In this document: positions 5,789-58,771 of the stretch, piece after piece
How the letters are laid out: the number at the start of each line of letters is the position of its first letter
Numbering within the stretch: the stretch's first letter is position 1
NCBI GenBank assembly: GCA_902786925.1
Contig: CADAEK010000012.1
Span: forward strand, 1-64,000
Direction: 5' to 3'
From: an uncultured Bacteroidales bacterium
GTDB taxonomy: Bacteria; Bacteroidota; Bacteroidia; Bacteroidales; Bacteroidaceae
Length of the DNA: 64,000 nt
The notes under the pieces: model-generated
The model's input: the letters and a program-made list of their open reading frames with translations, nothing else
Database searches by the model: none
Told to the model about the DNA's origin: nothing
Translations under genes and position numbers: made by a program

Positions 5789-5890
5789 CTTCCTGCGCCT
5801 CAAAAACGGTGTGAGTCACACCGTGGGTACCGGTCTGAGTCAGACCGAGGGTGGCGGTGTGACTCACACCGCCAAAGTAGTGTAGGAAGA
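5789..5890. repeat. Palindrome-triplet repeat, copy A
   Basis: Three 17-bp odd palindromes start at 5807, 5831 and 5855, exactly 24 bp apart: CGGTGTGAGTCACACCG, CGGTCTGAGTCAGACCG and CGGTGTGACTCACACCG. Each has 8-bp arms around one central base. Units 1 and 3 are also perfect reverse complements of each other. The left border CTTCCTGCGCCTCAAAA (5789-5805) recurs at copy B. The right border is degenerate (ending taggaag near 5889). It lies between the convergent DUF1593 and fimbrillin-like genes. Confidence 0.9.
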
Positions 5891-5929
5891 GCCTATTTTG
5901 AGGTATCGCTTATAAGCATAAAAACGTTA

Positions 5930-7276
5930 CTACTTTTTCATATTCACGATGGCGACAGGACGGAGAATGTCGGTGCTAGCAAAAGAAAATCCCTCTGTTA
6001 CTTGGGTAGCTGAAAGCTTACTGATTCTCAACTTTCCATCTGAATTAACATACAAATACTTGGCATCAGTATTCAAATTAGATATTTTACTCCTATTCTT
6101 ACGAACAAGTTCTATTTCTTCACCATTCATCAACCTCCAACCTTCTATACCACTTACAGCACAGTCAGGCATAGCGGCTTCAATAGCACTCAAAGCTGTT
6201 GCTTCATCCGCTTTATCTTCATAAATCGTTGCCTTCTGCTTTGAAGACAATAACAGCACCTCTGAAATGCCTTCATTTTCGCTCACAGAGAGCACGTAAC
6301 AGCCTTGGTAGGTACTTCCTACCGCTGGGATGTTATCCACCAATACGTAGTCCGTAGGAGTGGAAGGAGTGTTCTTTTCAGCATTGTCTCCCGATGGCTG
6401 AGTGCCCTGCTCGTTGAAATCAAACGAAATGGTCTTCTCCTCGTTCCATTTAGCACCTATGATTGTACCCGTCAGGGTCACTCCGATAGCTTCGGTATAT
6501 TTGCCCTCGATATTGATAACATCACCTGCCACAAATTGCTCTGAGGTGTTGTAAGTGTAGCTGGTAGTGCCCGTAGGCTTGACAATGTTGACTGTAATGG
6601 TGGCAGAGTTAGCAGAAGGAGGCAACAGATAGCGTAAGCCCGTGAAGCTCCATGTGCGTCCATCTTCTTGTTTCTCCAAAGCAATTGTCTCTGTGCCTGA
6701 ATCATCTTTGTAGGTAACTCCTTCCAAGTTCTGCCACAATGGAGACAAGGTGACAGACACTGCTGTGGCAGCAGATGGTATGCTCTGCAGAACCACACGC
6801 TGCAGGCGCATCACCTTTCTTTCCATCGAGAGGGTCAGCACATTGGTTCCTCCGTCAACAAGCTGCACATGGCTCTTCGTAGCCATCAAATCAGTATGGC
6901 TCTTTCCTTCACGCAGCGTGACGCTCATAGCAGGAGTTGCTTCCGTTTCAGAGGGCAAGACATAATTCTCTGATGTGGCACCACCGATGGCATACACATC
7001 ATAGCTTCCCTCCGTCAAGGAGATGTTCAAGGTTTGGGTTTCGTCAGCAATGGTCTGTAGCGAAACACACTTTGTACCGCTGAACACATACACGTTGACC
7101 GGATAACTGACGTTTAGCTCATCAGCTGTTGTTGATGTTCGGGTACGCACTTGAAGCACAGAATTGGCTTCCTTCTGAACGATTTCTGTTGTGACTTGTG
7201 TTAGTTCTGATTGCTCACATGAGAGCAAAGCACATGCTGCTATCAGCAGCAAGAGCTTTCCATTTATTCTATTCAT
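5930..7276 (-). CDS. Fimbrillin-like (FimB/Mfa-type) lipoprotein
   Basis: A 448-residue outer-surface lipoprotein with a lipobox at LLSC (C20). The first two thirds look like the two-domain beta-sandwich of the fimbrillin/Mfa2-FimB family (NVYVFSGTKCVSLQT; YDVYAIGG; FTGLRYLLPPSANSATI). The last about 140 residues (from TDYVLVDNIPAVG) form a separate domain with GWRLMNGEEIELV and a closing LRPVAIV, resembling the DUF1566/FISUMP-type tip domains of such adhesins. Its role is probably minor-fimbria tip/anchor or adhesin. It is a single gene with its own consensus promoter. The assignment rests on overall pattern, not a diagnostic motif. Confidence 0.65.
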   Translation of the reverse strand: MNRINGKLLLLIAACALLSCEQSELTQVTTEIVQKEANSVLQVRTRTSTTADELNVSYPVNVYVFSGTKCVSLQTIADETQTLNISLTEGSYDVYAIGGATSENYVLPSETEATPAMSVTLREGKSHTDLMATKSHVQLVDGGTNVLTLSMERKVMRLQRVVLQSIPSAATAVSVTLSPLWQNLEGVTYKDDSGTETIALEKQEDGRTWSFTGLRYLLPPSANSATITVNIVKPTGTTSYTYNTSEQFVAGDVINIEGKYTEAIGVTLTGTIIGAKWNEEKTISFDFNEQGTQPSGDNAEKNTPSTPTDYVLVDNIPAVGSTYQGCYVLSVSENEGISEVLLLSSKQKATIYEDKADEATALSAIEAAMPDCAVSGIEGWRLMNGEEIELVRKNRSKISNLNTDAKYLYVNSDGKLRISKLSATQVTEGFSFASTDILRPVAIVNMKK

Positions 7277-7314
7277 TATCCTGAAAAATTTAAGTATAGA
7301 TCGTTATCTGAGAA

Positions 7315-7345
7315 CAAAATTAAAATGAAGAAAGGAGCAAACAAA
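7315..7345 (-). promoter_or_regulatory. Promoter for the fimbrillin-like gene
   Basis: Read on the minus strand: TTTG (7342-7345), a 19-bp spacer and TAATTTTG (7315-7322), about 40 bp before the start codon. Confidence 0.6.
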
Positions 7346-7440
7346 AACCCTTCTAACCTTTTTTGAAGAAAAAAGGAAAAAAAGAACAACATTAACCAAT
7401 TTTTAAGTATCTTTGCCCCAAAATAAAGGGATACACCTAT

Positions 7441-7932
7441 ATGGAAAAAAGGAAACATATCTACACAGAACAAGAGGCATACTTGAAACTTTCCACCTTA
7501 TGCGCAATGGGAGAACAGTGTGTGGAGGATGTGAGACGCAAGATGAAACGATGGGAGATAGCTGACGATGTGGCTGAGAAAATTATTGAACGGCTGGTGA
7601 AGGAGCGGTTTATTGATGAAGCACGTTATGCCAAAGCTTTTGTGAGGGACAAGTTCCGCTACAACCATTGGGGCAGGGTGCGGATTGAGCAGGAACTGAG
7701 AATGCGACACATTGCCCAAAAGCATATTGAAATGGGACTGGAGGAACTGAAGGAAGAGGATTGTCTTGACACGCTCAAGGAAATCATCCAGAAGAAACGG
7801 CCCACCATAAAAGGAAAGAGTGAATATGAAATAAAGGGCAAGCTGATTCGCTTTGCTTTGGGACGAGGATTTGTGATGGAGGACATTCTTAAAGTGGTTG
7901 GAGACCTGGACAATTCCGACTCTATTTTCTAA
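7441..7932 (+). CDS. recX: RecX family regulatory protein
   Basis: A 163-residue, mostly helical protein of the RecX family, which binds the RecA filament and limits its activity. Three-helix repeats of the family are visible (EAYLKLSTLCAMGEQCVEDV; ERLVKERFIDEARYAKAFVRDK; LIRFALGRGFVMEDILKVV). The F-I-D-E-x-R-Y-A-x-x-F-V core motif is intact. A -7-like TATCTTTG (7408-7415) lies 25 bp before the ATG. No recA is nearby. The downstream comF begins about 28 bp after the stop, so they are likely co-transcribed. Confidence 0.9.
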   Translation: MEKRKHIYTEQEAYLKLSTLCAMGEQCVEDVRRKMKRWEIADDVAEKIIERLVKERFIDEARYAKAFVRDKFRYNHWGRVRIEQELRMRHIAQKHIEMGLEELKEEDCLDTLKEIIQKKRPTIKGKSEYEIKGKLIRFALGRGFVMEDILKVVGDLDNSDSIF

Positions 7933-7960
7933 CAACAACGATTTCTTTACCTCAACTATC

Positions 7961-8701
7961 TTGCCTATTTTCCGTGAATCATTGGATATAGTATTTCCAC
8001 GCACATGCATGATGTGTGGAAACAGGTTGGCGGCGCACGAACACTTTCTGTGCACCTCATGCGTTGTTCATCTTCCGCTCACAGAATCTCATACTGTTGA
8101 GCACAATCTTATCGAAAGGAAGTTCTGGACTCTCTTTCCTGTAAAGAGAGCTGTGTCAATGTTTCACCACGATGGAGAAAGCACACGCAGACTTCTCCAC
8201 CAAATCAAGTATCATGCCCATCCTAATCTGGCAGTCTATCTCAGTTCACTGTATGCCCAGGAACTGGAGGAATATGGATTCTTTGATGATGTGGATGTGA
8301 TTGTTCCGCTGCCACTTCATTGGAGAAGGCAAATGAAGCGGGGATATAATCAAAGTCATTATATAGCACGCGGTATTCAGCAAGTCACACATATTCCTGT
8401 GATGAAAAAGGTGGTAAAACGCATCAGGAACAATTCATCACAAACTCAATTGAATGCTCGGCAACGCATAGAGAATGTGGAAGGCATCTTTCTGTTGAAA
8501 CATCCTGAACTTATTGAAGGAAAACATGTGCTGCTAGTAGATGATGTGACGACTACAGGAGCTACGCTTTCTTCATGCGCAAAAGAATTGGCCAAGGCAC
8601 AGGGTGTGAGTATCTCTGTACTCACACTTGCTGTTGCTTCAGATAGTGCATTACCTTTTGTCCCAAATATGTATCCTCAGCCTCTAAATATGCCTCTGTA
8701 A
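7961..8701 (+). CDS. comF: ComF family phosphoribosyltransferase-like protein
   Basis: ComF-type protein linked to DNA uptake and processing in other bacteria. The N-terminal zinc-finger-like cysteines (CMMCG...FLCTSC) precede a type I phosphoribosyltransferase domain ending with the PRPP loop LVDDVTTTGATL. There is no ATG upstream of the cysteine motif. I chose TTG 7961 because it gives the usual family N-terminus (LPIFRESLDIVFPRTC); TTG 7898, overlapping recX, is the alternative. The 3' end overlaps the convergent ribD by 80 bp. Confidence 0.85.
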   Translation: MPIFRESLDIVFPRTCMMCGNRLAAHEHFLCTSCVVHLPLTESHTVEHNLIERKFWTLFPVKRAVSMFHHDGESTRRLLHQIKYHAHPNLAVYLSSLYAQELEEYGFFDDVDVIVPLPLHWRRQMKRGYNQSHYIARGIQQVTHIPVMKKVVKRIRNNSSQTQLNARQRIENVEGIFLLKHPELIEGKHVLLVDDVTTTGATLSSCAKELAKAQGVSISVLTLAVASDSALPFVPNMYPQPLNMPL

Positions 8702-9584
8702 GCTTGGGAGCCTTCACCTGTCCATGAATGTCTGTGTCACCTTTCTCCACATAACATTCATCCCACATTCCACTATCAATAAATGACTGAAGCAGTTGTG
8801 CGCCTCCTTCAATCAGCAGCGTCTGGATGCCGTCTTCATAGAGTTGATTGAGTATGTTATCAACACTTGTTGACTGTATCAGTTGGAATCCTTCAGGCAA
8901 GGATAAAGGTTGTGAAGAGGCCACATATCTCTTCGGAGAACTGCCCACCCATTCACGAGTAGTTAAACTGGGCTTATCTATTTCAAACGTATTTCTGCCT
9001 ACCAAAATAGCTTGATGCTCTGCCCTGCGCTTATGACAAAGCATCTGTGTATAAGTGTTGGAAATCTTTCCATCAATATATCCATCTGCAGATTCAGCCC
9101 ACTTCAAGGTGACGTAGGGACGCTTCTTGCCGTGATAAGTCATGAAGCGCTTGTTTAGCGACTTGCACTCACTTTCCAACACCCCTACAACAACTTCTAT
9201 TCCAGCATCCCTTAACTTCTGAATGCCACGTCCTTGCACCTTAGCAAACGGATCTTGACAACCTATCACACAACGCTTAAAACCTTTACTTATCAACAGG
9301 TCTGCACAAGGAGGTGTCTTGCCATAATGTGAACAGGGTTCCAGACTGACATAAATAGTACTATCTTTCAATAGATGCTCATCTTCTTTCTTCACAGATG
9401 CACAGGCGTTTACCTCAGCATGCCCCTCTCCACATCGAACATGATAGCCTTCACCAATGATTTTACCCTCATGAACAATCACAGCACCCACCATTGGGTT
9501 CGGTTGTGCATTCTTCTCACCATTCTTGGCCAACTGAATACACCTGCGCATATACTTTTCGTCAGTTATCAACACACTATTCAT
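8622..9584 (-). CDS. ribD: Bifunctional riboflavin deaminase/reductase RibD
   Basis: Second and third steps of riboflavin synthesis: deamination of diaminohydroxyphosphoribosylaminopyrimidine, then reduction of the ribosyl side chain. Residues 1-145 are the deaminase with zinc ligands H55 (HAEVNA, catalytic E57), C84 and C93 (PCSHYGKTPPC). Residues 150-320 are the DHFR-like reductase (PYVTLKWAESADGYIDGKIS; LIEGGAQLLQSFI). Full length at 320 residues. A -7 box TAATTTTG lies on the minus strand at 9611-9618. No other rib genes are adjacent. Its last 80 bp overlap the end of comF on the other strand. Confidence 0.95.
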   Translation of the reverse strand: MNSVLITDEKYMRRCIQLAKNGEKNAQPNPMVGAVIVHEGKIIGEGYHVRCGEGHAEVNACASVKKEDEHLLKDSTIYVSLEPCSHYGKTPPCADLLISKGFKRCVIGCQDPFAKVQGRGIQKLRDAGIEVVVGVLESECKSLNKRFMTYHGKKRPYVTLKWAESADGYIDGKISNTYTQMLCHKRRAEHQAILVGRNTFEIDKPSLTTREWVGSSPKRYVASSQPLSLPEGFQLIQSTSVDNILNQLYEDGIQTLLIEGGAQLLQSFIDSGMWDECYVEKGDTDIHGQVKAPKLTEAYLEAEDTYLGQKVMHYLKQQQV

Positions 9585-9760
9585 AACTTATCAACTCTTA
9601 TAAACATGGGCAAAATTACACATTTAGTTTTGAAAATAAAAGAAACCAAATCAATTTCAGTATCAAACTATTGCTATACAAAAGAGAATAACTAAATTTG
9701 CAATCATAAACAGTATTATCAACAGGGTTATTACAACCTTTATTCACACTATTATCAACA
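9566..9760. other. Cluster of DnaA-box-like 9-mers
   Basis: Within 195 bp lie TTATCAACA (9566, 9716, 9752), TTATCAACT (9588) and TTATTCACA (9740). The last fits the classical TTATNCACA DnaA box exactly; the others differ by one or two bases. All are on the same strand. The cluster spans the start of ribD and the gap up to the small gene at 9766. Confidence 0.5.
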
Positions 9761-9765
9761 ATAAA

Positions 9766-9957
9766 ATGAGTGACGGTAATTTCAATAGACAGCTGCTTCC
9801 AAAGACAGAACTCTCATCTGGTATCCGTGCTGGCAAAGCACAAATGAGAGTGAAAGCTGAACACGCTTTTGAAGAAGTAGTCAACAGCTTCATTCTGAAT
9901 GATAACGAACTGAAAGAAGCCATGAAAAAACGCTTCATGGAACTGCTGAGACAATGA
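9766..9957 (+). CDS. Small hypothetical protein (63 aa)
   Basis: A 63-residue charged protein with no signal peptide or membrane segment: ELSSGIRAGKAQMRVKAE then NELKEAMKKRFMELLRQ. The second half looks helical. It is placed in the AT-rich region next to the DnaA-box-like cluster, diverging from ribD. Codon use is ordinary and the composition resembles a real small soluble protein. I do not recognise a family. A role near the putative replication origin would be pure inference. Confidence 0.55.
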   Translation: MSDGNFNRQLLPKTELSSGIRAGKAQMRVKAEHAFEEVVNSFILNDNELKEAMKKRFMELLRQ

Positions 9958-10427
9958 ATTATCAGGTAGTAATCACTATAGTTGAAAGAGATTAGATCAC
10001 TTATCATCAATAAGGAAACATACAGTAGAACCCAGGCCCTACTTACACGTTGTTCATAACTCTGTCAATAACTATTTCATAACTTACTAACAACTTTTAA
10101 TAACTTTTCTTGCTTTTCTACATCATCTTTATACCACCAACCTTCATCGAAGAACAAAGAAAAGTTATTATTTTTTTTCAATTATTTTTCAATACCAAAA
10201 CACGTATTTCTTAACAATCTAAATAACTGAAAAACAACACACTTAAAATACTTTTCAACACAATCAACAGCATATTAACATCATCATATAATTAGTTCTT
10301 AAATAAAAGAAACAATAATATATAATAATGATGTGTGGAAGATGAGTTATAAAAAAATTGGTGATGAAAGAAAAAGATTGTGACTTTGTCACGAATGATA
10401 TTCACCTCTAAATAAAGATCACTAGTA
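9958..10427. other. AT-rich gene-free stretch, candidate oriC core
   Basis: No credible gene. Much of 10081-10330 is very AT-rich, with many short words such as ataactt, caacttt and ttaaca, as expected for a DNA-unwinding element. An inverted repeat gtgac-ttt-gtcac lies at 10380-10392. Together with the DnaA-like boxes to its left and the change of G/C strand bias around 10 kb, this is my best candidate for the replication origin. Confidence 0.45.
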
Positions 10428-10619
10428 ATGAATAATAAGAGTTGGGACGACTATTTGGCAGCCATCCATGCATCAAAGCAACGTTGGAACAGGCCTGTGG
10501 ACTCAGCAACAAGAATCCAGACACAGAAGAGGCTCAACAAATCTTTAGGGATTGAGAATCCTTACTTAGGCATGTCGTTTAGCGAGCTAAAAGCCTTGGG
10601 ACATGGATTGAGAGAATAA
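10428..10619 (+). CDS. Small hypothetical protein (63 aa)
   Basis: A 63-residue protein beginning MNNKSWDDYLAAIHASKQRW and ending FSELKALGHGLRE. No signal peptide, no membrane segment, no cysteine. It starts right after the AT-rich stretch and is followed by more than 500 bp without a gene. The tryptophans and proline-rich middle look like a genuine small folded protein, but I cannot name a family. Confidence 0.5.
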   Translation: MNNKSWDDYLAAIHASKQRWNRPVDSATRIQTQKRLNKSLGIENPYLGMSFSELKALGHGLRE

Positions 10620-10690
10620 AGATTCATCATCTGTGGCTCTTTTTTGCTAAACGACAAATGCCAAATAAGCGTGAAGGCCCTGTTATTATA

Positions 10691-10721
10691 TTAATTATAT
10701 TATATTATATTATATTATATA
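10691..10721. repeat. Pentanucleotide microsatellite (ATATT)n
   Basis: About five to six copies of ATATT, preceded by related ttatattaattat, form a perfect short tandem repeat prone to slippage. No coding sequence covers it. Confidence 0.8.
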
Positions 10722-10882
10722 GGGGGCATTTTTTTCTTATTTGTTATTTGGCGTTTGGCGCATTTGTTGTTGTCGTCTTTGTCACATGACAATGCTAATA
10801 TGCTCAATAGAACAACATCCTGGTGTTGAATGTGTGGAAGTCATAGTGTAGTGCATAAAAGAGATACGTTTTAGAGGTAAAA

Positions 10883-10931
10883 GGGCATACTCGTTGCCAT
10901 AATTACGATATGCCCTTCATCGTAATTACGG
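10883..10931 (+). promoter_or_regulatory. Interlaced inverted repeats (pseudoknot-like order) upstream of groESL
   Basis: Arm a GGGCATA (10883-10889), arm b ccataattacga (10897-10908), arm a' TATGCCC (10909-10915), arm b' tcgtaattacgg (10920-10931, one G-T pair). The order a-b-a'-b' means the two stems are interlocked: either alternative hairpins or an H-type pseudoknot. It sits 263 bp before groES. Function unknown. Confidence 0.5.
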
Positions 10932-11193
10932 TAGCGGGCAAGAGTAAATTGCGGCGCTGAGTGTGTGCTCTGGTTGTTGCTTTGTCTCTCTTTCATGTTG
11001 TTGTGATGATCATCTATGTGAAACTATTCGGAGCTGAAGAAGGAATGACTTCAGTTCTTTTTGTCACTCCTTTTATGCCACTTTGTCACCTTTGTCATAC
11101 ATTGGTCAAGGTGGCATCGTATTTGTGTATAGATTAAAGTGAAACTCGAATTCATATAAAATTAATAATATAAACTTTAAAACAAGAAAGACT

Positions 11194-11466
11194 ATGAACA
11201 TTCAACCATTAGCAGACAGGGTGCTAGTACTCCCTAAACCTGCTGAAGAAAAAACAGTTGGTGGCATTATTATCCCTGATACAGCAAAGGAAAAGCCTCT
11301 GCAGGGTGAAGTTGTCGCTTGTGGTAACGGTACTAAGGATGAGGAAATGATTGTCAAGGTTGGCGATCAGGTTCTCTATGGCAAGTATTCAGGCACTGAA
11401 CTCGAATATGAGGGTGTGAAGTATCTGATGATGCGCCAGAGCGATGTATTGGCAATTCTCAAATAA
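11194..11466 (+). CDS. groES: Co-chaperonin GroES
   Basis: A 90-residue co-chaperonin that caps the GroEL cavity. The family signature is clear at the N-terminus ([20 protein letters not shown]), as is the mobile-loop region [16 protein letters not shown] (about 21-36). Full length. It is followed by groEL 97 bp downstream in the same direction, with an inverted repeat between them. Both genes are read away from the proposed origin. Confidence 0.98.
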
Positions 11467-11485
11467 TGTAAAATGTATAATTTGT

Positions 11486-11533
11486 AATGTATAATAATCA
11501 TGCGGCTTGCAAGGCGGTAGCTTATTATACATT
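11486..11533 (+). repeat. Hairpin between groES and groEL
   Basis: aatgtataataa (11486-11497) and its perfect complement ttattatacatt (11522-11533), with a weaker extension outward, enclose a 24-base loop containing the GC-rich tgcggcttgcaaggcggtagc. No T-tract follows, so it looks more like an mRNA processing or stability element than a full terminator. Confidence 0.55.
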
Positions 11534-11551
11534 GTACATTATCAATTATAA

Positions 11552-13195
<1,644 letters not shown>

Positions 13196-13247
13196 TCAGC
13201 TTCTATACATCGCTTGGCGAAGACAGCCATACGAAGCTATATAATAA

Positions 13248-13290: not shown

Positions 13291-13338
13291 TTTCTCTTTA
13301 GAATGTTATTCAGAATACTTCAACGACGTGTGTGCTTC

Positions 13339-14574: not shown

Positions 14575-14599
14575 ATTAGTTGTAGTTAGTATTTTGTTG

Positions 14600-23701: not shown

Positions 23702-23905
23702 TTTGCGCTCCTTCGGGGGAACATTTGCGCTCCTTCGGGGGAACATTTGCGCTCCTTCGAGGGAACAATTGTGACACCCTCGAGGTAACACTTACGACAC
23801 CCTCGGGGTAACACTTGCGACACACCCTGTGTTACACTTGCAACACACCGTATGTTACACCTGTAACACATCGTATGTTACACTTGTAACACAATCGCTG
23901 CGAAG
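23702..23905. repeat. Nine-unit drifting array of 22-23-bp repeats
   Basis: Contiguous units start at 23702, 23724, 23746 (22 bp each) and 23768, 23791, 23814, 23837, 23860, 23883 (23 bp each). Units 1 and 2 are identical (tttgcgctccttcggggg + aaca), unit 3 differs by one base, and later units change stepwise until unit 8 is cctgtaacacatcgtatg + ttaca. At the last junctions the DNA forms 16-bp palindromes TGTTACA-NN-TGTAACA (23853-23868, 23876-23891). The remaining leuS-GH43 gap (23490-24061) holds the leuS promoter and a -7-like TACATTTG (24005-24012) before the GH43 gene. Confidence 0.9.
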
Positions 23906-39326: not shown

Positions 39327-39392
39327 CACGAATTTTGAAAAGGATTAGCTTTTGGAAGTTGAAACACTTAATAGAACTAAATACAATTGCTT

Positions 39393-40598
39393 ATGAGGAA
39401 ATCATTACTCGTTTTTCTTGCCCTGGCTCTTGCTTTGGGCGTACAGGCCAAAGAATGGCAGTGGGGGAAACCTACTTGGAATGTTGCTAATGGTAGAGTG
39501 TATGAAGATGTATTCGAAGTGAATGCTGACGGTATCATCCTCTCGTACCCTAACCCCAGCAAGTTCGTCCTGACAGCCATGAACGTGCTGTCTGTGAGCT
39601 ACAACCTCTATGTGGACGATGCTACTGAGCCTATTGAGCTGTATGCGTCTGCGCCTCGTCAAACGACAGAAGTGAGTTTCAACTACGACTGGGTGGAGGG
39701 TCACTCTTACCGCATCGAGACCACGGGTGCTGCCTTGTGCCAACTGAACTTGGCTACCTTCAAGACAGACACGCTGTCGCTCAATAAGACGGACTCCTAC
39801 ACCCTCAGCTTCACCATCGAAGGTCCTGATGTGGTGGATGTCATCAACGTGGAGGGCACTATGGCGCTGACCATTCTGAATCAAGAAGAAACTCCTACGT
39901 TCTCGCTCATTGATGTCCCCAGCATCTGTGAGAAACTGGGCATCAACAGCATTGACGAGGCTGAGCTCTATGGCTTGAATCCTAACGGCTCTTCCAACAT
40001 CTTCTTCTTCGACCCTCGCTTTGACTTCTGGCGCGATGCTGATGGAGGTCTCTCCGTGTATGGCGGTGGCGCTGGTGGCGGTGTCTTTGACGTTCTTGGC
40101 CATAATCCCTATCCTGCTGTCTATAGCATCAAGCTGAACGAGACGTGCGACTCTGTCTTTTACTATTTCTATGACTATTGGCGTATTTATGACCCCGATG
40201 AACCTTCAGAGGTGCCAGGCTCTGGAACTGGTGCCAAGCGCCGTGCACCCGCAACCTCTTACCACAACGTGGTGTGGGACTGGGAATGGGTGGACGAAGC
40301 AGGTCAGCCTCAGGTGACACAGTACATGCGCAGCTATCGTGTGGACGAAGGCGAGGACTACAAGGGTGGCTTTGCTATCCGTAAAGACAAGAAGGTGGTG
40401 TTCATCAATGCTACACTCCACTTCGTCTCTCAAGAGGCTTATGCACAGTATCAGGAAACACCAGTAGAGGCTATCGAGGCTGCTCCCGTTGCTGCCGATG
40501 GCATCTACAGCCTGAGCGGTGTTCCTCAAGCTACTTTGAAGAAGGGCTTGAACATTGTCCGCAAGGGTGGTGAAGTGAAGACCGTGCTGGTGCCGTAA
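39393..40598 (+). CDS. Secreted hypothetical protein with sorting-like tail
   Basis: A 401-residue secreted protein (signal peptide about 1-18, MRKSLLVFLALALALGVQA) of unknown function. Mostly beta-strand; rich in acidic and aromatic residues. A low-complexity GGGAGGGVFD stretch (about 220-230) is followed by a DPDEPSEVPGSGTGAKRR linker, and the tail (YSLSGVPQATLKKGLNIVRKGGEVKTVLV) closely matches that of the upstream 1159-residue protein. ATG 39393 is preferred over TTG 39387. It has its own strong promoter and terminator, so it is monocistronic. The shared tail suggests the two proteins go to the same place. Confidence 0.72.
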   Translation: MRKSLLVFLALALALGVQAKEWQWGKPTWNVANGRVYEDVFEVNADGIILSYPNPSKFVLTAMNVLSVSYNLYVDDATEPIELYASAPRQTTEVSFNYDWVEGHSYRIETTGAALCQLNLATFKTDTLSLNKTDSYTLSFTIEGPDVVDVINVEGTMALTILNQEETPTFSLIDVPSICEKLGINSIDEAELYGLNPNGSSNIFFFDPRFDFWRDADGGLSVYGGGAGGGVFDVLGHNPYPAVYSIKLNETCDSVFYYFYDYWRIYDPDEPSEVPGSGTGAKRRAPATSYHNVVWDWEWVDEAGQPQVTQYMRSYRVDEGEDYKGGFAIRKDKKVVFINATLHFVSQEAYAQYQETPVEAIEAAPVAADGIYSLSGVPQATLKKGLNIVRKGGEVKTVLVP

Positions 40599-40621
40599 TC
40601 ACTGAGCCGCATCATTAATAT

Positions 40622-40668
40622 AACCGGAGGTCGTGTCTGTTATTATTGACACGACCTCCGGTTTTTTT
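40622..40668 (+). terminator. Terminator after the 401-aa gene
   Basis: A perfect 16-bp stem (aaccggaggtcgtgtc / gacacgacctccggtt) with a 10-base loop, followed by seven T. Confidence 0.92.
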
Positions 40669-40730
40669 GTTGGGGAGGGGAGAGACCCCCTCGGTCTCCC
40701 TGTTTAGCTTCCATTTTTTAACTCCCCTTT

Positions 40731-40817
40731 CTTCAAAACCGACGTCGTCGAGGTCGGTTCACCGATGTCGACGATGTCGGTCAATCGATGTCGACGACAT
40801 CGGTTTAGAGGTGCAGG
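40731..40817. repeat. Palindrome-triplet repeat, copy C
   Basis: Three 17-bp units start at 40740, 40763 and 40786, exactly 23 bp apart: CGACGTCGTCGAGGTCG (one arm mismatch), CGATGTCGACGATGTCG (two mismatches) and CGATGTCGACGACATCG (perfect 8-1-8 palindrome). The right border tttagaggtgcagg is close to ttttgaggcgcagg of copy B. The core sequence is unrelated to copies A and B, although the layout is the same. Confidence 0.8.
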
Positions 40818-40879
40818 CGGTGCTGTTTGGGCGGTGTCGACATTCTCCGTCTGGAGATATGTCGTGCAGGCCTCAAAGA

Positions 40880-40919
40880 ATGCCCCCCGAAAGCTGAATG
40901 GTCAACTTTCGGGGGGCAT
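40880..40919 (-). terminator. Hairpin after the thioredoxin-like gene
   Basis: A perfect 14-bp stem (atgccccccgaaag / ctttcggggggcat) with a 12-base interior that can pair further (tga/tca). It lies 30 bp after the minus-strand stop. The T-tract is weak (attcttt). Confidence 0.7.
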
Positions 40920-40949
40920 GTTGTATGTAGTCTTCGCTGTGCTCAGCGA

Positions 40950-42107
40950 TTATTTGCTGTTAGGCATCTTGCTATCCATGGCGTTGATGATGGTCTGCAG
41001 CAGGTCGTCTGTGGGGCGAGAGAGGCGCATGTTGCCTACTTTGTTCATTGACTGGCGCTTCCCTGCACGGATGTCGTCAAGGCGCTTCTGGAGGATTTTC
41101 TTCATCTCAGCCTTCTGTGCTGACTGGTCGGCTGGGTTGGAGAAGGGCTGTGCCCAGCGTGCCAGCTGCATGTCGTCGGCATCGAGGTTCTTGTTCTTGA
41201 GGTACTCCTTGATGTACTTCATGTAGCTGACATAGTCCTTCTGCTTGCTGGACAGCGTGATGAGGGTCGAGAGGCGGTAGTGGTCGGCGTCGGCCAGCTG
41301 CAGCTCGTTGAGCAGGGCCACGAAGCGGTCAAACTGGGCCTGGTCGAGGTCGGCGGTGCCGTCGTGCTCGTTGATGACCTGGCGTGGGAAGTTGCCAAGC
41401 ACGTTGCGAATCTTCATCTCTACGGGCATTTCGCCAAGTGTGGCCTTGAGGGCCTCTGGGTGCTTGGCTGTGTAGGTGAATGCCTTGGAGAAGGGGTTGG
41501 TGATGTTGCGCATGAAGATCATGCTCAGGGCGCTGTCGGCAGCGAAGGTCTCGGCCTGTGGGTCGAGGATGGCTTCTGCCACGAGGTTGGCCTCGTCGCC
41601 CTTGTAGCTGGCGTTGAGGGTAGCCAGGTAGGTCTTCAGGAACTCAGGGTCGCGGTCGCCGCTCTGCCAGCGCTGCTGCAGGTCGGCAGAGGAGTTGTCC
41701 TTGCTCTTCTCTTCCACGTTCTTGATGAATGCTTCGGCAGCGCAGCCACCTACGAAACGGCCTATTTCCTGTGCGTCGGCATTGAAGATGACGAAGGTGG
41801 GGTAGGCCTGAATCTGGAGTTTCTTGGCCAGAGGGGCGCCATAGGCGCTTTCCATGTCAATCTTGATGTTGATGTAACGTGGGTTCATGAAGGCGCCGAC
41901 GGTTTCCTGTGGGAATACATCGCGTGACATCTTCTTGCAGGGGCCGCACCACTGGGTGAAGCAGTCGAGGAAGATGAGCTTTTTCTCGGCTTTTGCCTTA
42001 GCAGCAGCCTGCTCGAGGGTGGTTCCTTCGGGCTCGAAGGCCATGCCTTGTGCCATCATTGCCACGGTGGCGATGAGGGCGATGAGTGTTAACGTGATTT
42101 TTTTCAT
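40950..42107 (-). CDS. Secreted thioredoxin-like protein with C-terminal helical region
   Basis: A 385-residue exported protein (signal peptide about 1-20). Residues 28-135 are a thioredoxin fold with active site QWCGPCKKM (C54, C57) and cis-proline in QAYPTFVIF. The remaining about 240 residues are helical, TPR-like, with no assigned domain. Periplasmic disulfide reductase/isomerase activity is likely. It is the last gene of the minus-strand SusC/D operon, 120 bp after the PKD gene. A 9-bp repeat array fills most of that gap. Confidence 0.85.
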   Translation of the reverse strand: MKKITLTLIALIATVAMMAQGMAFEPEGTTLEQAAAKAKAEKKLIFLDCFTQWCGPCKKMSRDVFPQETVGAFMNPRYINIKIDMESAYGAPLAKKLQIQAYPTFVIFNADAQEIGRFVGGCAAEAFIKNVEEKSKDNSSADLQQRWQSGDRDPEFLKTYLATLNASYKGDEANLVAEAILDPQAETFAADSALSMIFMRNITNPFSKAFTYTAKHPEALKATLGEMPVEMKIRNVLGNFPRQVINEHDGTADLDQAQFDRFVALLNELQLADADHYRLSTLITLSSKQKDYVSYMKYIKEYLKNKNLDADDMQLARWAQPFSNPADQSAQKAEMKKILQKRLDDIRAGKRQSMNKVGNMRLSRPTDDLLQTIINAMDSKMPNSK

Positions 42108-51833: not shown

Positions 51834-52147
51834 TAATATAAATTAAATAGGTTGGATTGTTAGTGGAATCGCTTGCAAAGATAGGCCTTTCTTTTCGTTC
51901 GTCATAAAAATAGGGAATAAAATTTGTTCCAAGTCGTTGATTCACGTTGTTTTTTGTACTAAGATAGTAGCGAATGACACTTTAGTTAGACGATTTTTGT
52001 ATTCTATCTTCTTCTAATTTGGTCAGATTGAAAAGAAAACGTAACTTTGCAGTCGCAAAGTGATAGTTAGATGGCAATTTAAACGTCAAATAGTTGTAGA
52101 AGAAAGTTTTTCAGGAGTAAAAAGAAACAACATAAACAATAAAGCTT
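51834..52147. other. Divergent control region, GH127 versus kor genes
   Basis: A 314-bp gap, AT-rich, no ORF. It holds the minus-strand -7 for GH127 (51876-51883) and the full kor promoter (52018-52049). No notable repeat seen. Confidence 0.6.
52018..52049 (+). promoter_or_regulatory. Promoter for the kor operon
   Basis: TTTG (52018-52021), 20-bp spacer, TAACTTTG (52042-52049), with a leader of about 98 bases to the first start codon. Confidence 0.75.
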
Positions 52148-53998: not shown

Positions 53999-54015
53999 TA
54001 GAAAGGACATTCATT

Positions 54016-55020
54016 ATGGCATATACAGCTCAAGATTTTAAGAAGGGACAGCCAAGATGGTGTCCTGGATGTGGTGACCACTTCTTCCTTGCCTCACTGC
54101 ATAAGGCAATGGCCGAGATTGGTGTAGAACCTTGGAACACAGCCGTCATTTCAGGTATCGGTTGTTCGTCACGTCTGCCACACTACATGGCAACCTATGG
54201 CATGAACACCATCCATGGCCGTGCAGCGGCTATCGCAACAGGTTGTAAGGTGGCTAACCCCAACCTGACCGTATGGCAGGTGAGCGGTGACGGTGATGGA
54301 CTTGCCATCGGCGGTAACCACTTCATCCATGCGAACCGTCGCAACATCAACCTCAACATGATTCTGCTGAACAACCGCATCTACGGTTTGACAAAGGGTC
54401 AGTATTCACCTACTTCACCACGTGGTTTCGTGTCGAAGTCAAGCCCTTACGGAACGGTGGAAGACCCATTCCGTCCTGCAGAGCTCTGCTTCGGTGCACG
54501 CGGACACTTCTTCGCACGTGCCGTAGCCACTGATGCTCCAGGCACTGTAGAGATTCTCAAGGCCGCTTACAATCATAAGGGTGCAGCCGTATGTGAGATT
54601 CTGCAGAACTGTGTCATCTTCAACAATGGCACCCACGATGCTGTCTATAGCAAGGAAGGACGTGCCAAGAACGCCATTTACGTGCAGCACGGCAAACCCC
54701 TCATCTTCGGTGAGAACAACGAGTTTGGCTTGATGCAGGAAGGCTTTGGCCTGAAGGTGGTCAAGATTGGTGAGAATGGCATCACAGAGAAAGACATCCT
54801 TGTGCACGACGCTCACTGCGAGGACAACACGCTCCAGCTCAAGCTTGCCTTGATGGGTAACGGTGATGGTTTCCCTGTGGCACTTGGTGTCATCCGCGAC
54901 GTAGATGCTCCAACCTACGACGATTGTGTGACAGCTCAGATTGAAGAGGTGAAGACTCAGAAGAAGTACCACAACTTCGCTGAGCTCTTGGAGACCAACG
55001 ATATCTGGGAAGTAAAATAA
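54016..55020 (+). CDS. korB: 2-oxoacid:ferredoxin oxidoreductase beta subunit
   Basis: A 334-residue thiamine-pyrophosphate-binding subunit. Cluster cysteines in RWCPGCGDHFFL, SGIGCSSRLPHYM, and TPP motif GDGDGLAIGGNHFIHANRRN ending near LLNNRIYGLTKGQYSPTSP. Pairs with the alpha subunit; no separate delta ferredoxin-like subunit is present, as is usual for the KorAB type. Confidence 0.94.
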   Translation: MAYTAQDFKKGQPRWCPGCGDHFFLASLHKAMAEIGVEPWNTAVISGIGCSSRLPHYMATYGMNTIHGRAAAIATGCKVANPNLTVWQVSGDGDGLAIGGNHFIHANRRNINLNMILLNNRIYGLTKGQYSPTSPRGFVSKSSPYGTVEDPFRPAELCFGARGHFFARAVATDAPGTVEILKAAYNHKGAAVCEILQNCVIFNNGTHDAVYSKEGRAKNAIYVQHGKPLIFGENNEFGLMQEGFGLKVVKIGENGITEKDILVHDAHCEDNTLQLKLALMGNGDGFPVALGVIRDVDAPTYDDCVTAQIEEVKTQKKYHNFAELLETNDIWEVK

Positions 55021-55024
55021 GACG

Positions 55025-55064
55025 ATAAAAAAAGCGTAAGGTTGAGTATGGCTCGCCTTACGCT
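55025..55064 (-). terminator. Terminator for dusB
   Basis: A 9-bp stem agcgtaagg (55033-55041) / ccttacgct (55056-55064), with gag/ctc inside. On the minus strand it is followed by eight T, so it serves dusB. Its stem covers the dusB stop codon. It may also mark the end of korB. Confidence 0.8.
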
Positions 55065-56131
55065 AAGTTTAAGATGCGCTCTTTCGCCTCGTCCAACAGG
55101 CTGAAGAGCGCATCTTGTGTTTCTGCCTGCAGAATCTTTATTCGAGTTTGTCGGAAGTCGGGAATGCCCTTGAACAGAGGGCTGTTGGCCAAGTGTCTCC
55201 TCACATGGATGATGCCACCCAGTTCCGTGCGCTTGCGCTCCTTTAGTGCGTTGTCTTCACGGAGCGAGTAAGCCACGCTGGTGCGCACCTGCCGTTTCAG
55301 CACATCCATCTTCCAGTCAAGTGTCATAGAGTCGTCGTGGTGCCCCGTGTCCAGATATGTTCTCACATCTTTGAAGAGCCAGGGCTGACCAAATGTGGCA
55401 CGGCCTATCATTACCGCATCCACTCCGTATTGCTCAAATGCTTGGGCCGCTTGTTCCGCTGTGCAGATGTCTCCATTGCCAATGATGGGGATGTGGATGC
55501 GTGGGTTCCGTTTCACCTCTCCGATGAGGGTCCAGTCGGCCTCTCCCTGATACATTTGGCTGCGTGTTCTGCCGTGGATGGTAAGAGCCTCGATGCCACA
55601 GTCCTGCAGCCGCTCGGCCAGTTCTACGATGAAGGGTTTCCCTTCCTGAACAGCCCCCCATTCGGCAGGCATGTCGTAGAGTGAAGGCACATCCCATCCG
55701 AGTCGTGTCTTTACGGTCACAGGGATGGACACCGCTTTCACTACCTCGCGGGTGATGTCAAGCATCAGTTGGGGAGTGCGCAGCATGCCTGCACCAGCCC
55801 CTTTCCCTGCCACCTTCTTCACGGGACAGCCGAAGTTGATGTCGAGGATGTCGGGCTTAGCTTCGCTCTCCACGATGCGGGCTGCCTCCACCATGCTCTC
55901 CACGTCACGTCCATAGATTTGGATAGCTACGGGACGTTCGTTGTCATCTACCCGAATCTTCTCCAGCGAGCGGTTCACATTGCGAATCAGGGCATCAGCG
56001 CTGACAAACTCCGAATACACCATGCTGGCGCCAAACTCTTTGCAGAGCAGCCGAAAAGCCTGATCTGTCACGTCCTCCATCGGCGCCAACAGAACAGGCT
56101 TCTCACCTAGATTAATGTTACGAATATTCAA
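55058..56131 (-). CDS. dusB: tRNA-dihydrouridine synthase
   Basis: A 357-residue flavoenzyme reducing uridine to dihydrouridine in the tRNA D-loop. The FMN barrel starts with PVLLAPMEDVTDQAFR. The DusB-type motif with catalytic cysteine C102 is DINFGCPVKKVAGKGAGAGM, followed by VTVKTRLGWD, LTIHGRTRSQMYQG and IGNGDICTAEQA. The only start that keeps the family N-terminus is TTG at 56131 (no ATG is available), giving NIRNINLGEKPVLL. Confidence 0.93.
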   Translation of the reverse strand: MNIRNINLGEKPVLLAPMEDVTDQAFRLLCKEFGASMVYSEFVSADALIRNVNRSLEKIRVDDNERPVAIQIYGRDVESMVEAARIVESEAKPDILDINFGCPVKKVAGKGAGAGMLRTPQLMLDITREVVKAVSIPVTVKTRLGWDVPSLYDMPAEWGAVQEGKPFIVELAERLQDCGIEALTIHGRTRSQMYQGEADWTLIGEVKRNPRIHIPIIGNGDICTAEQAAQAFEQYGVDAVMIGRATFGQPWLFKDVRTYLDTGHHDDSMTLDWKMDVLKRQVRTSVAYSLREDNALKERKRTELGGIIHVRRHLANSPLFKGIPDFRQTRIKILQAETQDALFSLLDEAKERILNLA

Positions 56132-56149
56132 TTATCGATGTTCAATTAA

Positions 56150-56308
56150 TTAAGCTTCTGAAAATTCGCTTTTACCTACACCACAGAGTGGGCATTCAAA
56201 ATCATCTGGAAGATCTTCAAATGCAGTGCCTGGAGCAATTCCTCCTTCAGGATAACCCACCTCTGGGTCATACTCCCAGCCGCAGGTGTCACATACGTAT
56301 TTCTTCAT
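56150..56308 (-). CDS. Rubredoxin
   Basis: A 52-residue iron protein: [20 protein letters not shown] at the start and [15 protein letters not shown] near the end. The two CxxCG knuckles (C6, C9, C39, C42) bind one iron. Carries electrons to oxygen- and peroxide-reducing proteins. It lies 42 bp after the rubrerythrin-family gene on the same strand, so the two probably work together. Too short to be caught by a 60-codon cutoff. Confidence 0.95.
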
Positions 56309-56350
56309 AATCGTTCCTGTTTTGAATTATTGTACTAAGTGTGTGAGCTA

Positions 56351-56914
56351 TTACTTGAAATATCTGTTATACAGTCCCTGGAAGCCAGCACCGTGACGAG
56401 CCTCGTCCTTAGCCATCTCATGCACTGTGTCGTGGATAGCGTCGAGGTCCAGCTTCTTGGCCACCTTCGCAATCTCCAGCTTGCCTGCACATGCACCTTC
56501 CTCTGCCTCCATGCGCTTCTTCAGGTTGGTCTTGGTGTCCCAGACCACCTCGCCGAGCAGTTCGGCAAAGCGTGAAGCGTGGTCAGCCTCCTCATAAGCA
56601 TAGCGGCGGAACGCCTCCGACACCTCGGGATAGCCCTCACGGTCGGCCTGGCGAGCCATAGCCAGATACATACCTACCTCGGTGCATTCACCCATGAAGT
56701 GGTCCTTCAATCCTTGAAGCACAAAAGCACCTTCTTCACCTTCAGGAATGGCCTTAGCCACACCGAGTTCATGTTCGCAAGCGAAATTCAGTCCGTCAGT
56801 TTCTTCCTTTAGCTTAAACTTTGAGCCAGGAACTTTGCACTGTGGACACTTCTCTGGAGGGTTGTCACCCTCATGCACATACCCGCAAACGGGGCATACC
56901 CATTTCTTTGCCAT
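56351..56914 (-). CDS. Reverse-type rubrerythrin (peroxide-reducing)
   Basis: A 187-residue peroxide reductase of anaerobes. The rubredoxin domain comes first (C7, C10, C23, C26 in [12 protein letters not shown] and [10 protein letters not shown]), followed by the four-helix di-iron domain ([56 protein letters not shown] with E and H iron ligands). This order is the opposite of classical rubrerythrin. It has its own consensus promoter and leads the rubrerythrin-rubredoxin unit. Confidence 0.93.
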
Positions 56915-57011
56915 AATCGTTAGAGTTTTAGGGTTAGCAATTGTTTTATTTTGTTACGTAAACCCCCATGTTTCCTTCGCCGAAAAAGTTCGGATTCGTT
57001 TCATGGGATTG

Positions 57012-57042
57012 CAAAGGTATAGAAAAGCCGTGAACATCCAAA
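57012..57042 (-). promoter_or_regulatory. Promoter for rubrerythrin-rubredoxin
   Basis: Minus strand: TTTG (57039-57042), 19-bp spacer, TACCTTTG (57012-57019), with a leader of about 90 bases. Confidence 0.7.
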
Positions 57043-57143
57043 ACTTTTTCCATTTTTTTTTGCAATCGTTGGAAAAAGAGTTCTTAATGGCAAATCGCAT
57101 TCAGCCTTCTGACGTGCAGTTGGACCATGCTGACATTACCGCT

Positions 57144-58463
57144 TTATCGGTTCGGATACACCACCTCGTTGCTTGGGTCGCCCAGTCCGCCGTAGTAGTT
57201 AGCACAGCGCACCGAGAAGCAGGAGCCTTCAGCCGTTCCGCGCGGTACATAATAATAAGGCTCTGTGGTGAAAGCCACCACATCGCGGTTCTTGCACACA
57301 GCATAGAGACAAGCCTCTGGGATGTCCTCCCAATAGATGTGTCCTCGGTTCTTGATGTGTACTACAGGTGGATCTACTTGAGCAGCCCGCATATCAGGTC
57401 TCCAGTTGCCAAACACGTTCTCCACGTCATAGCGTTCCGCTTCCTCAGCTGTGAGTGTGGTGTTGTACCCCACTGTCCTCACAGCTCCATCCTTGTCCTT
57501 GAACTGTTGGCGGCGTGCCCCTGTAGGCACCAGTTGGAAGTCCTCATCCATACTCTCATATTCAGCAAACTGCGTGGGCAGTGTGCCGTGCATCTCAGTC
57601 CATCCCACCGAGTCGGGTTTCAGTTCCATCAGCGTGCTCAGCCACACAGCCCTTGGACTGCCCTTCCAGGGGCGTCCCAGCCAGTAGCGTCCGTTCTGTT
57701 CGGGTGCGCCGTAGATGTGGCAGCCGTTGAACACATAGCCATACTCACGTCCAGCCTCTGTGGCAGGAGCGCATATCACGTCGCGTTTTCCGTCCGTGCC
57801 TCTGGTGCGCAGTTCCAGGTCACAGCGGTTGAAGTAGATGGTGCCTCCTCCGCAGATAAAGTCCACCGTGCCCTTCACCACACAGTCCTCAAGATACGTG
57901 GTGCCGCCGTCGTTCGTGTAGTACGTGTCTTGCGTACTCATCAGCGAAATCCGCTTGAAGATGTTCCCTCGGCAGTGCTTCTCGTTCAGCGCCACTGCAC
58001 GATTCGCAAACGCGTTCAAGTCGTTGCGGTAGTTCGACCACAGTTCCAGGTCCTGCATGTAGGTGCTGTCAGCCCCGTTCAGGAACAGCGTCGAGGTGCA
58101 GCTGATGCCCTCGTGCATCGGCATTGACTCAATCTGCGTGTGCTTCATGCCCTCGCCACAGATACTTGTGTTCGGTGCTGTCAAGATGGTCATCGGGCTT
58201 GGAATCTCCAGCTCCTTGCCATTCTCCACAATCTTGATAGGATTGCCCTCGCCCTTAATGCGGTACATGCTCGACTTGATGAAGATTCTGAAGCGTTTCG
58301 TCTTGTCAGGCCGGTTGTTTGCCGCATGGATAGCCGCAATGAAGTTGCCGTTGGTAGGCACCACGAAGTCATACTTGTACCTGATGCGTCCCAACGAGTC
58401 TGGCTCCTGAGCTGCCACATTCAGTGCCAGCATCATTGCCAGCGCCATCACCACTGTCCGCAT
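57144..58463 (-). CDS. Secreted pectinesterase (CE8)
   Basis: A 439-residue secreted pectin methylesterase that de-esterifies homogalacturonan. Right-handed beta-helix with QDTYY (Q178, D179), the catalytic aspartate D201 in GTVDFICGGG, and LGRPWKG (arginine). Signal peptide about 1-19 from ATG 58463, which I prefer over longer in-frame starts at 58487 and 58586 because they add residues before the signal. A -7 TACTTTTG is at 58509-58516. The C-terminal about 100 residues are an extension of unknown role (RGHIYWEDIPEACLYAVCK). Confidence 0.92.
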   Translation of the reverse strand: MRTVVMALAMMLALNVAAQEPDSLGRIRYKYDFVVPTNGNFIAAIHAANNRPDKTKRFRIFIKSSMYRIKGEGNPIKIVENGKELEIPSPMTILTAPNTSICGEGMKHTQIESMPMHEGISCTSTLFLNGADSTYMQDLELWSNYRNDLNAFANRAVALNEKHCRGNIFKRISLMSTQDTYYTNDGGTTYLEDCVVKGTVDFICGGGTIYFNRCDLELRTRGTDGKRDVICAPATEAGREYGYVFNGCHIYGAPEQNGRYWLGRPWKGSPRAVWLSTLMELKPDSVGWTEMHGTLPTQFAEYESMDEDFQLVPTGARRQQFKDKDGAVRTVGYNTTLTAEEAERYDVENVFGNWRPDMRAAQVDPPVVHIKNRGHIYWEDIPEACLYAVCKNRDVVAFTTEPYYYVPRGTAEGSCFSVRCANYYGGLGDPSNEVVYPNR

Positions 58464-58670
58464 GATCTTGAAACTGTGAAATATCATATTCGAATCATAT
58501 AAACAATGCAAAAGTAAGAAGAAAAAACGAGACAGACGGGGTGGGGAATGCAAGAATTTGTATTTCTCTGTAAAAATCATCCGCATCCCGTTCTCGTCAC
58601 CACCCGCTTGTCTGCCGGCAGGTAAAAAGTGCAGAACAAAGCCCTCTTACGAACCCGTCTCAAAACAGGG

Positions 58671-58771
58671 CTTCCTGCACCCCCAAAACGGTCTGAGTCA
58701 CACCGGCACCCTCGGTGTGACTCAGACCGACCTATGCGGTGTGACTCACACCGCTTTTGAGGCGCAGGAAG
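58671..58771. repeat. Palindrome-triplet repeat, copy B (opposite orientation to A)
   Basis: Read in reverse, this copy closely matches copy A: border CTTCCTGCGCCTCAAAA, then CGGTGTGAGTCACACCG, CGGTCTGAGTCACACCG and CGGTGTGACTCAGACCG, starting 24 bp apart. Units start at 58689, 58713 and 58737 on the plus strand. The second and third units are perfect reverse complements of each other. The borders cttcctgcacccccaaaa (58671-58688) and cttttgaggcgcaggaag (58754-58771) form an inverted pair with three mismatches. Confidence 0.9.

Follow-up and report, generated by a model that had tools for sequence, protein, structure and literature searches.

The stretch considered here, referred to as the window, comprises the first 64,000 bp of contig CADAEK010000012.1 of an uncultured Bacteroidales genome (assembly GCA_902786925.1; G000 in what follows, with G numbers denoting genomes and L numbers denoting loci). 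Together with 40 predicted genes, the window contains three arrays of short palindromes, termed A, B, and C, each made up of three 17-bp units enclosed by borders. Arrays A and B are of type 1 (T1) and array C is of type 2 (T2). As argued below, these arrays and their relatives are probably binding sites for proteins of the HU-HIG family. None of the features is assigned to a strand.

5790..5889, no strand: array A with its borders, type-1 core CGGTSTGASTCASACCG
5807..5823, no strand: A unit 1, CGGTGTGAGTCACACCG (palindrome finder)
5831..5847, no strand: A unit 2, CGGTCTGAGTCAGACCG, C variant in both arms (palindrome finder)
5855..5871, no strand: A unit 3, CGGTGTGACTCACACCG (palindrome finder)
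40725..40817, no strand: array C with its borders, type-2 core CGAYRTCGWCGAYRTCG; 85.6 bits with covariance model R1, in whose training set C is included
40740..40756, no strand: C unit 1, CGACGTCGTCGAGGTCG (palindrome finder)
40763..40779, no strand: C unit 2, CGATGTCGACGATGTCG (palindrome finder)
40786..40802, no strand: C unit 3, CGATGTCGACGACATCG (palindrome finder)
58671..58771, no strand: array B with its borders, type 1
58689..58705, no strand: B unit 1, CGGTCTGAGTCACACCG (palindrome finder)
58713..58729, no strand: B unit 2, CGGTGTGACTCAGACCG, exact reverse complement of B unit 1 (palindrome finder)
58737..58753, no strand: B unit 3, CGGTGTGACTCACACCG (palindrome finder)

An earlier note on this DNA had placed three sets of three 17-bp units at these positions, with unit periods of 24 bp in A and B and 23 bp in C, in agreement with both the coordinates and the output of the palindrome finder. 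Indeed, when asked for three 8-1-8 palindromes with at most four mismatches summed, the finder returned exactly A, B, and C from the window and nothing from 10 shuffled windows. Units 1 and 3 of A are, as had been observed, exact reverse complements, as are units 1 and 2 of B (units 3 and 2 in the inverted reading). The description of the units as mostly 8-1-8 palindromes holds overall, with the correction that B units 1 and 2 each contain one arm mismatch and that C contains three in total. The core that had been quoted for C, CGATGTCG-A-CGACATCG, applies to the third C unit only.

Array A is flanked by convergent genes at 4222-5718 (plus strand) and 5930-7276 (minus strand), and array C by convergent genes at 39387-40598 (plus strand) and 40950-42107 (minus strand). 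Array B, the only one of the three found upstream of a gene, has minus-strand genes on either side, being 5' to 57144-58586 and 3' to 58861-59790. As judged by eye, a separate GC-rich hairpin is available to each of the convergent genes at C and to the plus-strand gene at A. Judged from these two sites, the arrays do not serve as the intrinsic terminator of a neighbor, and the earlier view that they are neither terminators nor classical repetitive extragenic palindromic (REP) elements stands. No Rfam match was found in the window at gathering thresholds.

Copies in the genome and distribution across the genus

Across the G000 assembly (2.59 Mb in 48 contigs), 88 pieces match array A. Counting A and B, the genome has 32 type-1 arrays that are exact and three units long, as well as several degenerate type-1 arrays and three single-unit remnants (L040, L042, and L043). 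Also present are 12 type-2 arrays, C included, and other cores are represented by L056 (CGATGTG arms) and L055 (two CGACATC units). The dispersed family with swapped cores that had been recognized in the window is thus larger than described and is also found in related genomes, and the three sites are far from being the only ones. The border, which had been offered as a search handle, is useful when matched exactly, with all seven exact matches being array ends, yet matches with up to three mismatches (728, as compared to 541 for a reversed control) are mostly due to chance. When type-1 arrays were counted in the examined loci, with overlapping loci entered more than once, 179 had three units, three had one, three had four, and two had two.

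A two-unit type-1 pattern, allowing up to three mismatches, was detected in 13 of 61 genomes, all 13 belonging to the same genus. The exact three-unit pattern was found in at least 93 stretches, with the genomes named being the metagenome-assembled genomes RUG418, RUG14560, RGIG3223 (Goat_Reticulum), and Tb.RUG.104, where RUG is presumably a rumen label. Covariance model R1, built from 29 arrays of several cores and blind to unlike ones, was used in a search with strict filters that may lose weak matches and with scoring of at most 108 candidates. Matches were obtained in 26 of the 45 genomes of the genus and in 13 of the 14 high-quality ones. At least 24 matches (both strands counted) were found in each of 21 genomes and 1 to 5 in each of five others. 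The same 21 genomes contain at least 11 exact units of GGWSWGASTCWSWCC, with 0 to 3 being present in the remaining 24. At the upper end, G019 contains 278 exact type-1-like units in a genome of 3.1 Mb, with the next of the 45 genomes having 113.

Across 247 genomes of the order, G000 reached 85.6 bits with R1, and scores of 20-28 bits were obtained for ten others. No clean arrays were seen in those ten, nor were convincing arrays found in the 246 other genomes of the order, and R1 gave no match in two genomes of the same family but a different genus. Viral contigs searched with the exact two-unit pattern gave no match, nor did plasmids or phages, and a phage or plasmid origin was accordingly dropped.

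Core types, constraint, and position relative to genes

Arrays are almost always built of three 17-bp palindromes that lie 23-24 bp apart. Beyond types 1 and 2, the cores include CGAYRTC(GGG/CCC)GAYRTCG (T3), CGATGTG(CCC/GGG)CACATCG (T4), CGTACCC(CTC/GAG)GGGTACG (T5), GGTGAGASTCTCACC (T1b), and CGGACTGSWSCAGTCCG (T7), with T1 to T5 being alignable column by column. Across core types, the two arms change together (136 two-sided cells, as compared to 56.4 expected by shuffling).

Orthologous sites can, moreover, carry different cores in different species. With core calls being made partly by eye, the site behind gene 40950-42107, where array C lies (18 loci read), was found to hold T2 in G000 and G010, T1 in G034, and T3 in G062 and G032, while that behind gene 5930-7276 (20 loci from 18 genomes) holds T1 in G000 and G010, T2 in G064, and T5 in G017. 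Behind what is apparently the same neighbor as 40950-42107, G019 contains a terminator and no array, as seen by eye; most other loci of the 18 have another neighbor. Behind the same gene, L260 (G023) and L259 (G063) carry inverted repeats that are AT-rich or GCAACG-type and are built differently.

Based on the examined loci, which are array-bearing ones, 33 G000 arrays have an orthologous array, shared with G010 in 30 cases, G036 in four, G034 in two, and G012 in one. On contig C21 (268 kb) of G010, the nearest species, all ten listed type-1 arrays are collinear with eight on G000 contig C3 and two on C12, with eight being placed by their flanks, L038 in part, and L034 by order only. Among these array-biased loci, the only pair without a type-1 partner is L161 and window positions 40444-40963, the latter holding array C. 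Unit number can change, having gone from three to one by 48 bp in L040 and L042 and differing (four vs. three) in L137 and L013.

When 27 orthologous pairs from G000 and G010, found allowing up to two mismatches per unit, were compared, none of 1,134 fixed unit positions (42 per array) had changed, as opposed to 12 of 243 S positions (nine per array), 30 of 378 spacer positions, and 148 of 972 border positions, the latter being an overestimate since borders were compared ungapped. In 37 close pairs (111 units), all differences fall at positions 5, 9, or 13 of the unit, that is, the unit center and two S positions, and are always exchanges of G and C; in seven distant pairs, 2 of 21 units differ elsewhere.

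The suggestion that arms are exchanged between units while complementarity is kept did not survive these comparisons. Complementarity between left-arm position 5 and its partner falls short of what independent arms would give, with agreement in 42 of 96 G000 units (52.7 expected) and in 179 of 387 units over five genomes (214.2 expected). Arm shuffling by inversion was likewise rejected for recent time, with none of 57 asymmetric units and none of 74 spacers being inverted in 37 close orthologous arrays. Among distant pairs, 1 of 13 units is inverted.

Both array ends fit a single border consensus per species group, such that terminal inverted repeats are present; the consensus is about CTTCCTGCACCTCAAAA in G000 and G010, CTTCCACTGCCTCAAAA in G012 and G036, and GCTCGTCACCTCAAAA in G034. 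Covariation of the borders as an outer stem was rejected, given how in G000, agreement within an array (7.25 of 15 positions) equals that between arrays (7.21), as is also true of four other genomes. Matching borders therefore reflect a species consensus read from both sides. Taken together, the fixed unit positions, the lack of compensation, and the borders without covariation argue that constraint acts on the sequence of each half-site. Such constraint would be expected from a dimeric DNA-binding protein, and homogenization between copies could add to it. The two-sided symmetry seen across core types is, likewise, equally expected of the site of a dimer.

Two further regularities were noted in type-1 arrays. 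Of the 125 distinct exact arrays in five genomes, 101 carry the C variant in precisely two of their six arms, and the placement of the two nearly always follows one of four classes. Relatedness of the copies would be the simplest reason for the prevalence of two variant arms. The center base of a unit, in turn, correlates with which of its arms is the variant one (bGa 97 and aCb 91 vs. bCa 11 and aGb 5).

The position of the arrays relative to genes was considered in five genomes using a simple codon-based gene caller, with orthologs counted separately and with 7 arrays inside called frames and 8 at locus edges set aside. Of the 126 arrays that could be classified, 37 are flanked by convergent genes, as compared to 21 of 176 gaps without an array. 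Of the gene ends beside arrays, 105 of 137 3' ends but only 18 of 115 5' ends are within 120 bp, the median distance being 85 bp to a 3' end and 252 bp to a 5' end. For own-genome arrays, a terminator-like stem followed by a T run points at the array from 15 of 47 3' ends, as compared to none of 35 5' ends. Because the arrays mostly adjoin gene 3' ends, their pattern is unlike that of a promoter regulon.

HU-HIG genes preceded by arrays

In G000, the type-1 array of L009 (contig C7), also common to G010, G034, and G021, precedes a gene encoding an HU-like protein (positions 1078-1476 of the locus, minus strand), and the type-2 array of L044 (contig C3) precedes a paralogous gene (positions 839-1261, plus strand) whose product is 42% identical to that of L009. 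Both proteins belong to the HU-HIG family (PF18291; 43.4 and 66.4 bits, cut-off 26.2). A sequence comparison with the Protein Data Bank returned two HU chains (best E value, 8.4e-5). The AlphaFold model of the putative type-1 partner (pLDDT 80.7; only two of five models confident) presents an HU-like order of helices and strands together with an extra N-terminal beta-hairpin (residues 4-25).

The 18 array-bearing genomes considered contain 226 PF18291 matches, 4 to 23 each, from which 70 loci were selected by protein family alone. Upstream of these genes, the triple-palindrome score beat all 200 Markov shuffles in 13 instances and reached p ≤ 0.05 in 21, of which L334 and L335 pass by virtue of a stretch that is not an array. 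Upon addition of six genes found through their arrays, the corresponding values are 19 of 76 and 27 of 76. In the downstream control, 1 of 37 regions beat all shuffles and 3 of 37 reached p ≤ 0.05. A permissive finder placed upstream arrays at 27 of 78 HU open reading frames and a downstream one at a single frame, a count that includes L375, whose repeat is direct and not palindromic, and that enters L044 a second time as L338 and L385 a second time as L386.

In the HU-alpha orthogroup, the array is found 23-29 bp before the start in seven of ten tree rows (L009, L096, L071, L365, L367, L377, and L383), and by eye, the array of L154 is also close to the start. Here, the core drifts from CGGTGTGASTCACACCG to RGGTGAGASTCTCACCY while the place of the array is retained. 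In G000, the HU-alpha array lies downstream of a TATCTTTG box, which resembles the Bacteroidetes -7 element. In HU-beta and its near relatives, the array lies 84-149 bp upstream and, in G000, upstream of a TAATTTTGC box. More distant HU-HIG genes are preceded by AT-rich triplets at about 21-23 bp (L352, L363, L374, L384, and L358), with those of L352 (G000, contig C16), L363 (G017), and L374 (G016) being TTTTCAAAGTTTGAAAA-like, spaced by 22 bp and located 98-140 bp upstream. In G064, an array precedes a three-gene unit that ends in HU-beta; at that locus (L371, contig C70, about 70-880, minus strand), what by eye is a RelB/RelE-like pair lies between the array and promoter and HU-beta.

Core labels were assigned by hand to 30 array-bearing HU-HIG genes. 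On this basis, all 27 within-genome pairs of such genes differ in core, and the nearest relative in another genome has the same core in 23 of 30 cases (shuffled mean 2.7, maximum 12). Cores found at HU promoters also recur in dispersed arrays. CGGAGTC arms are common to the HU promoter (L355 and L356) and dispersed arrays (L294 and L296) in G062 and G032, CGACGTGCCCC is found at the HU promoter of L359 and in dispersed L293 in G007, CGGTGTGCCCC at the HU promoter of L364 and in dispersed L301 in G017, and the T2 promoter core in dispersed arrays of G016, G002, and G012. It had been expected beforehand that a GGTGAGA-type HU-alpha promoter would be accompanied by GGTGAGA or GGTCAGA dispersed arrays. 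This was borne out in G017 (L405), G016 (L408), and G003 (L412), considering one dispersed locus per genome, each on a contig other than that of the HU gene. As such, the promoter core agrees with the dispersed core in most genomes compared.

Finally, the window contains a possible further array at 23829..23893 (no strand), in which an even-length TGTTACACNTGTAACA-like core is repeated three times at 23-bp spacing and whose membership in the family is unproven; these palindromes gave no match to R1. They lie upstream of a GH43 gene that is divergent from a leucyl-tRNA synthetase gene, with decayed copies on the left, and could serve a further HU-HIG paralog as its site.

Arrays as predicted binding sites of HU-HIG paralogs

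The genus-wide family of arrays, with its positional constraint, its 3'-end preference, and its paralog-specific members upstream of HU-HIG genes, is probably best read as comprising the binding sites of cognate HU-HIG paralogs, which are predicted to regulate themselves and, probably, to structure the nucleoid behind gene 3' ends. Each array-linked paralog would own one core sequence, and the three half-site pairs, 23-24 bp apart, would seat three HU-HIG dimers side by side. In G000, the type-1 core, found in A, B, and 30 other exact arrays, would belong to the HU-HIG gene of L009 and the type-2 core, found in C and 11 others, to that of L044. Because an array of matching core precedes each of these two genes, self-regulation is suggested. 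Dispersed arrays behind 3' ends could, in turn, be places where the protein is loaded, so as to organize the nucleoid or insulate neighboring transcription units. From these sequence patterns, then, we infer physical binding, the dimer stoichiometry, self-regulation, and the nucleoid or insulator role. Of the possibilities raised in the earlier note, a family of DNA-binding sites is hence the one favored, given the fixed half-sites, the free S position in each arm, and the cognate HU-HIG genes. More tentatively, array-bearing genomes may run several parallel HU-HIG chromatin systems in which every array-linked paralog controls itself through an address of its own and is loaded at dozens of sites behind gene ends, and in which paralog and address shift specificity together, with old places being refitted with a new core; such refitting is proposed because site C has three different cores in three lineages.

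Several observations weigh against assigning the arrays to HU-HIG proteins. Upstream of 49 of the 76 HU-HIG genes, no array reaches significance, and a whole clade (25 tree rows) lacks them. Two HU-alpha rows deviate, with a distance of 328 bp to the array in L159 and no array in L370. The CGTACCC-related HU genes L331 and L333 have no array within 330 bp upstream, although an array does occur about 860 bp from L333. The HU-alpha promoter core of G064 (GGGAGTGACTCTTACCC) differs from the one dispersed T1-like array examined (GGGTGTGACTCACACCT), and for some dispersed cores, no HU partner was identified among the genes read, namely, those of L056 (G000), T3 arrays L195 and L209 (G012), and L298 (G019). 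Core sharing between HU orthologs is partly descent, since upstream DNA is inherited. Furthermore, the sample covers 70 of the 226 PF18291 matches, in 18 genomes that all bear arrays, and the top dispersed matches of R1 are biased to its training cores, with L253 (G062) being in the training set. Lastly, classical HU binds without sequence specificity (PMC5683647), and specificity would therefore be a special property of HU-HIG here.

Of the other explanations, the one that fares best, while still unlikely, is that the arrays are mobile palindromic elements, akin to miniature inverted-repeat transposable elements (MITEs) or REPINs, spread by a transposase in trans, with the copies at HU-HIG genes being old insertions or captured regulators. 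The inverted borders with their species-specific consensus and the dozens of dispersed copies would be in keeping with such elements, the terminator-like stems at 3' ends resemble target choice, and few of the 33 own arrays are common to the distant species G036, G034, and G012. By contrast, the ten type-1 arrays of G010 are collinear with their G000 counterparts, and the HU-alpha array keeps its place across several species while its core drifts. Moreover, no Y1 transposase (PF01797, Y1_Tnp) was found in G000 (92% complete), G010, or G012, where 22 of the 37 genomes of the same search have one and G034 and G036 lay outside the search. Likewise, viral contigs, plasmids, and phages yielded no match, and the seven exact border matches are all array ends. 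The mobile hairpin that had earlier been proposed is thus left to the deeper past only.

Somewhat less probable is that the arrays are sites of another regulator or nucleoid protein, with the HU-HIG genes being mere members of its regulon. The tie between HU-HIG protein and DNA is indeed indirect, and arrays adjoin many other genes, yet a single outside regulator cannot explain the arrays because the HU-HIG paralogs of one genome have different cores, cores that track the relatedness of the HU proteins. Least probable is a structured RNA or 3'-end element, whereby the transcribed triplet would fold into three hairpins acting as a terminator, mRNA stabilizer, leader, or small RNA: the palindromes, the A-rich left and T-rich right borders, the closeness to 3' ends, the joint change of both arms across core types, and an HU-alpha array that would fall in the transcribed leader (promoter box by eye) all fit this view, but the variable arm position of type 1 is uncompensated, the two borders of an array show no covariation, the bases of the units are conserved as such and not only as pairs, separate hairpins exist at C (both genes) and at A (plus-strand gene), and Rfam offers no match in the window.

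Parallels exist in known systems. In Escherichia coli, RIB/BIME-1 elements are dispersed palindromic intergenic repeats found at the 3' ends of transcription units and bound by IHF (PMC2817692). The arrays share with these the dispersed palindromes at 3' ends and a protein of the HU/IHF superfamily, here a putative one, yet differ in that RIB/BIME-1, as described there, has IHF between two REPs, whereas here a row of three equal, constrained palindromes is seen, with several paralog-specific cores. In REP/RAYT systems, a gene lies beside its cognate palindromes, which have many dispersed copies; gene and palindromes coevolve, with several pairs occurring in some genomes (PMC2817692). The combination of a gene with cognate palindromes and dispersed copies is thus common to the arrays, REP/RAYT, and REPINs (the subject of PMC3116915). 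Here, however, the partner is of the HU fold and no movement is seen between the two nearest species. The array listings, inspected by eye, showed no constant GTAG or CGTC tag beside the units, and identity with RAYT/REP was rejected as the three array-rich genomes searched contain no Y1 transposase.

CGTC-tagged REPs are short palindromes found in five phyla, Bacteroidetes included, apparently without a dedicated transposase, and have stems of 8-9 bp that begin with two A/T pairs, loops that mostly span 4-5 bases, an unpaired tail, and a mostly HH dimer arrangement (PMC3733652). The arrays, unlike these, consist of CG-ended 17-bp units in threes. Porphyromonas gingivalis is also a member of the Bacteroidales. 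Its BrickBuilt MITEs are intergenic, with a 23-nt period and small inverted ends, and comprise 1 to 22.8 direct repeats without spacers over 84 to 991 nt, with no BLASTn match outside the species (PMC4596501). Compared by description only, identity with BrickBuilt was rejected on the basis of build, as the arrays have three spaced units, many cores, and a genus-wide distribution. In the MatP/matS system, a dedicated protein has dozens of dispersed palindromic sites, with one protein and one site type. The arrays would resemble this in pairing a dedicated protein with dispersed palindromes but would differ in having several protein-site pairs per genome and changing cores.

In the open-licence PubMed Central literature, no paper on such arrays or on a DNA target of HU-HIG was found. 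HU-HIG is an expanded family in these genomes and, should the pairing hold, its members would gain defined DNA targets, making this a sequence-specific family of the HU fold with readable specificities. The genus would then also supply several natural cases of a joint shift in specificity by a nucleoid-type protein and its sites across the genome. With two such systems predicted in G000, the pairing is directly testable by binding assays.

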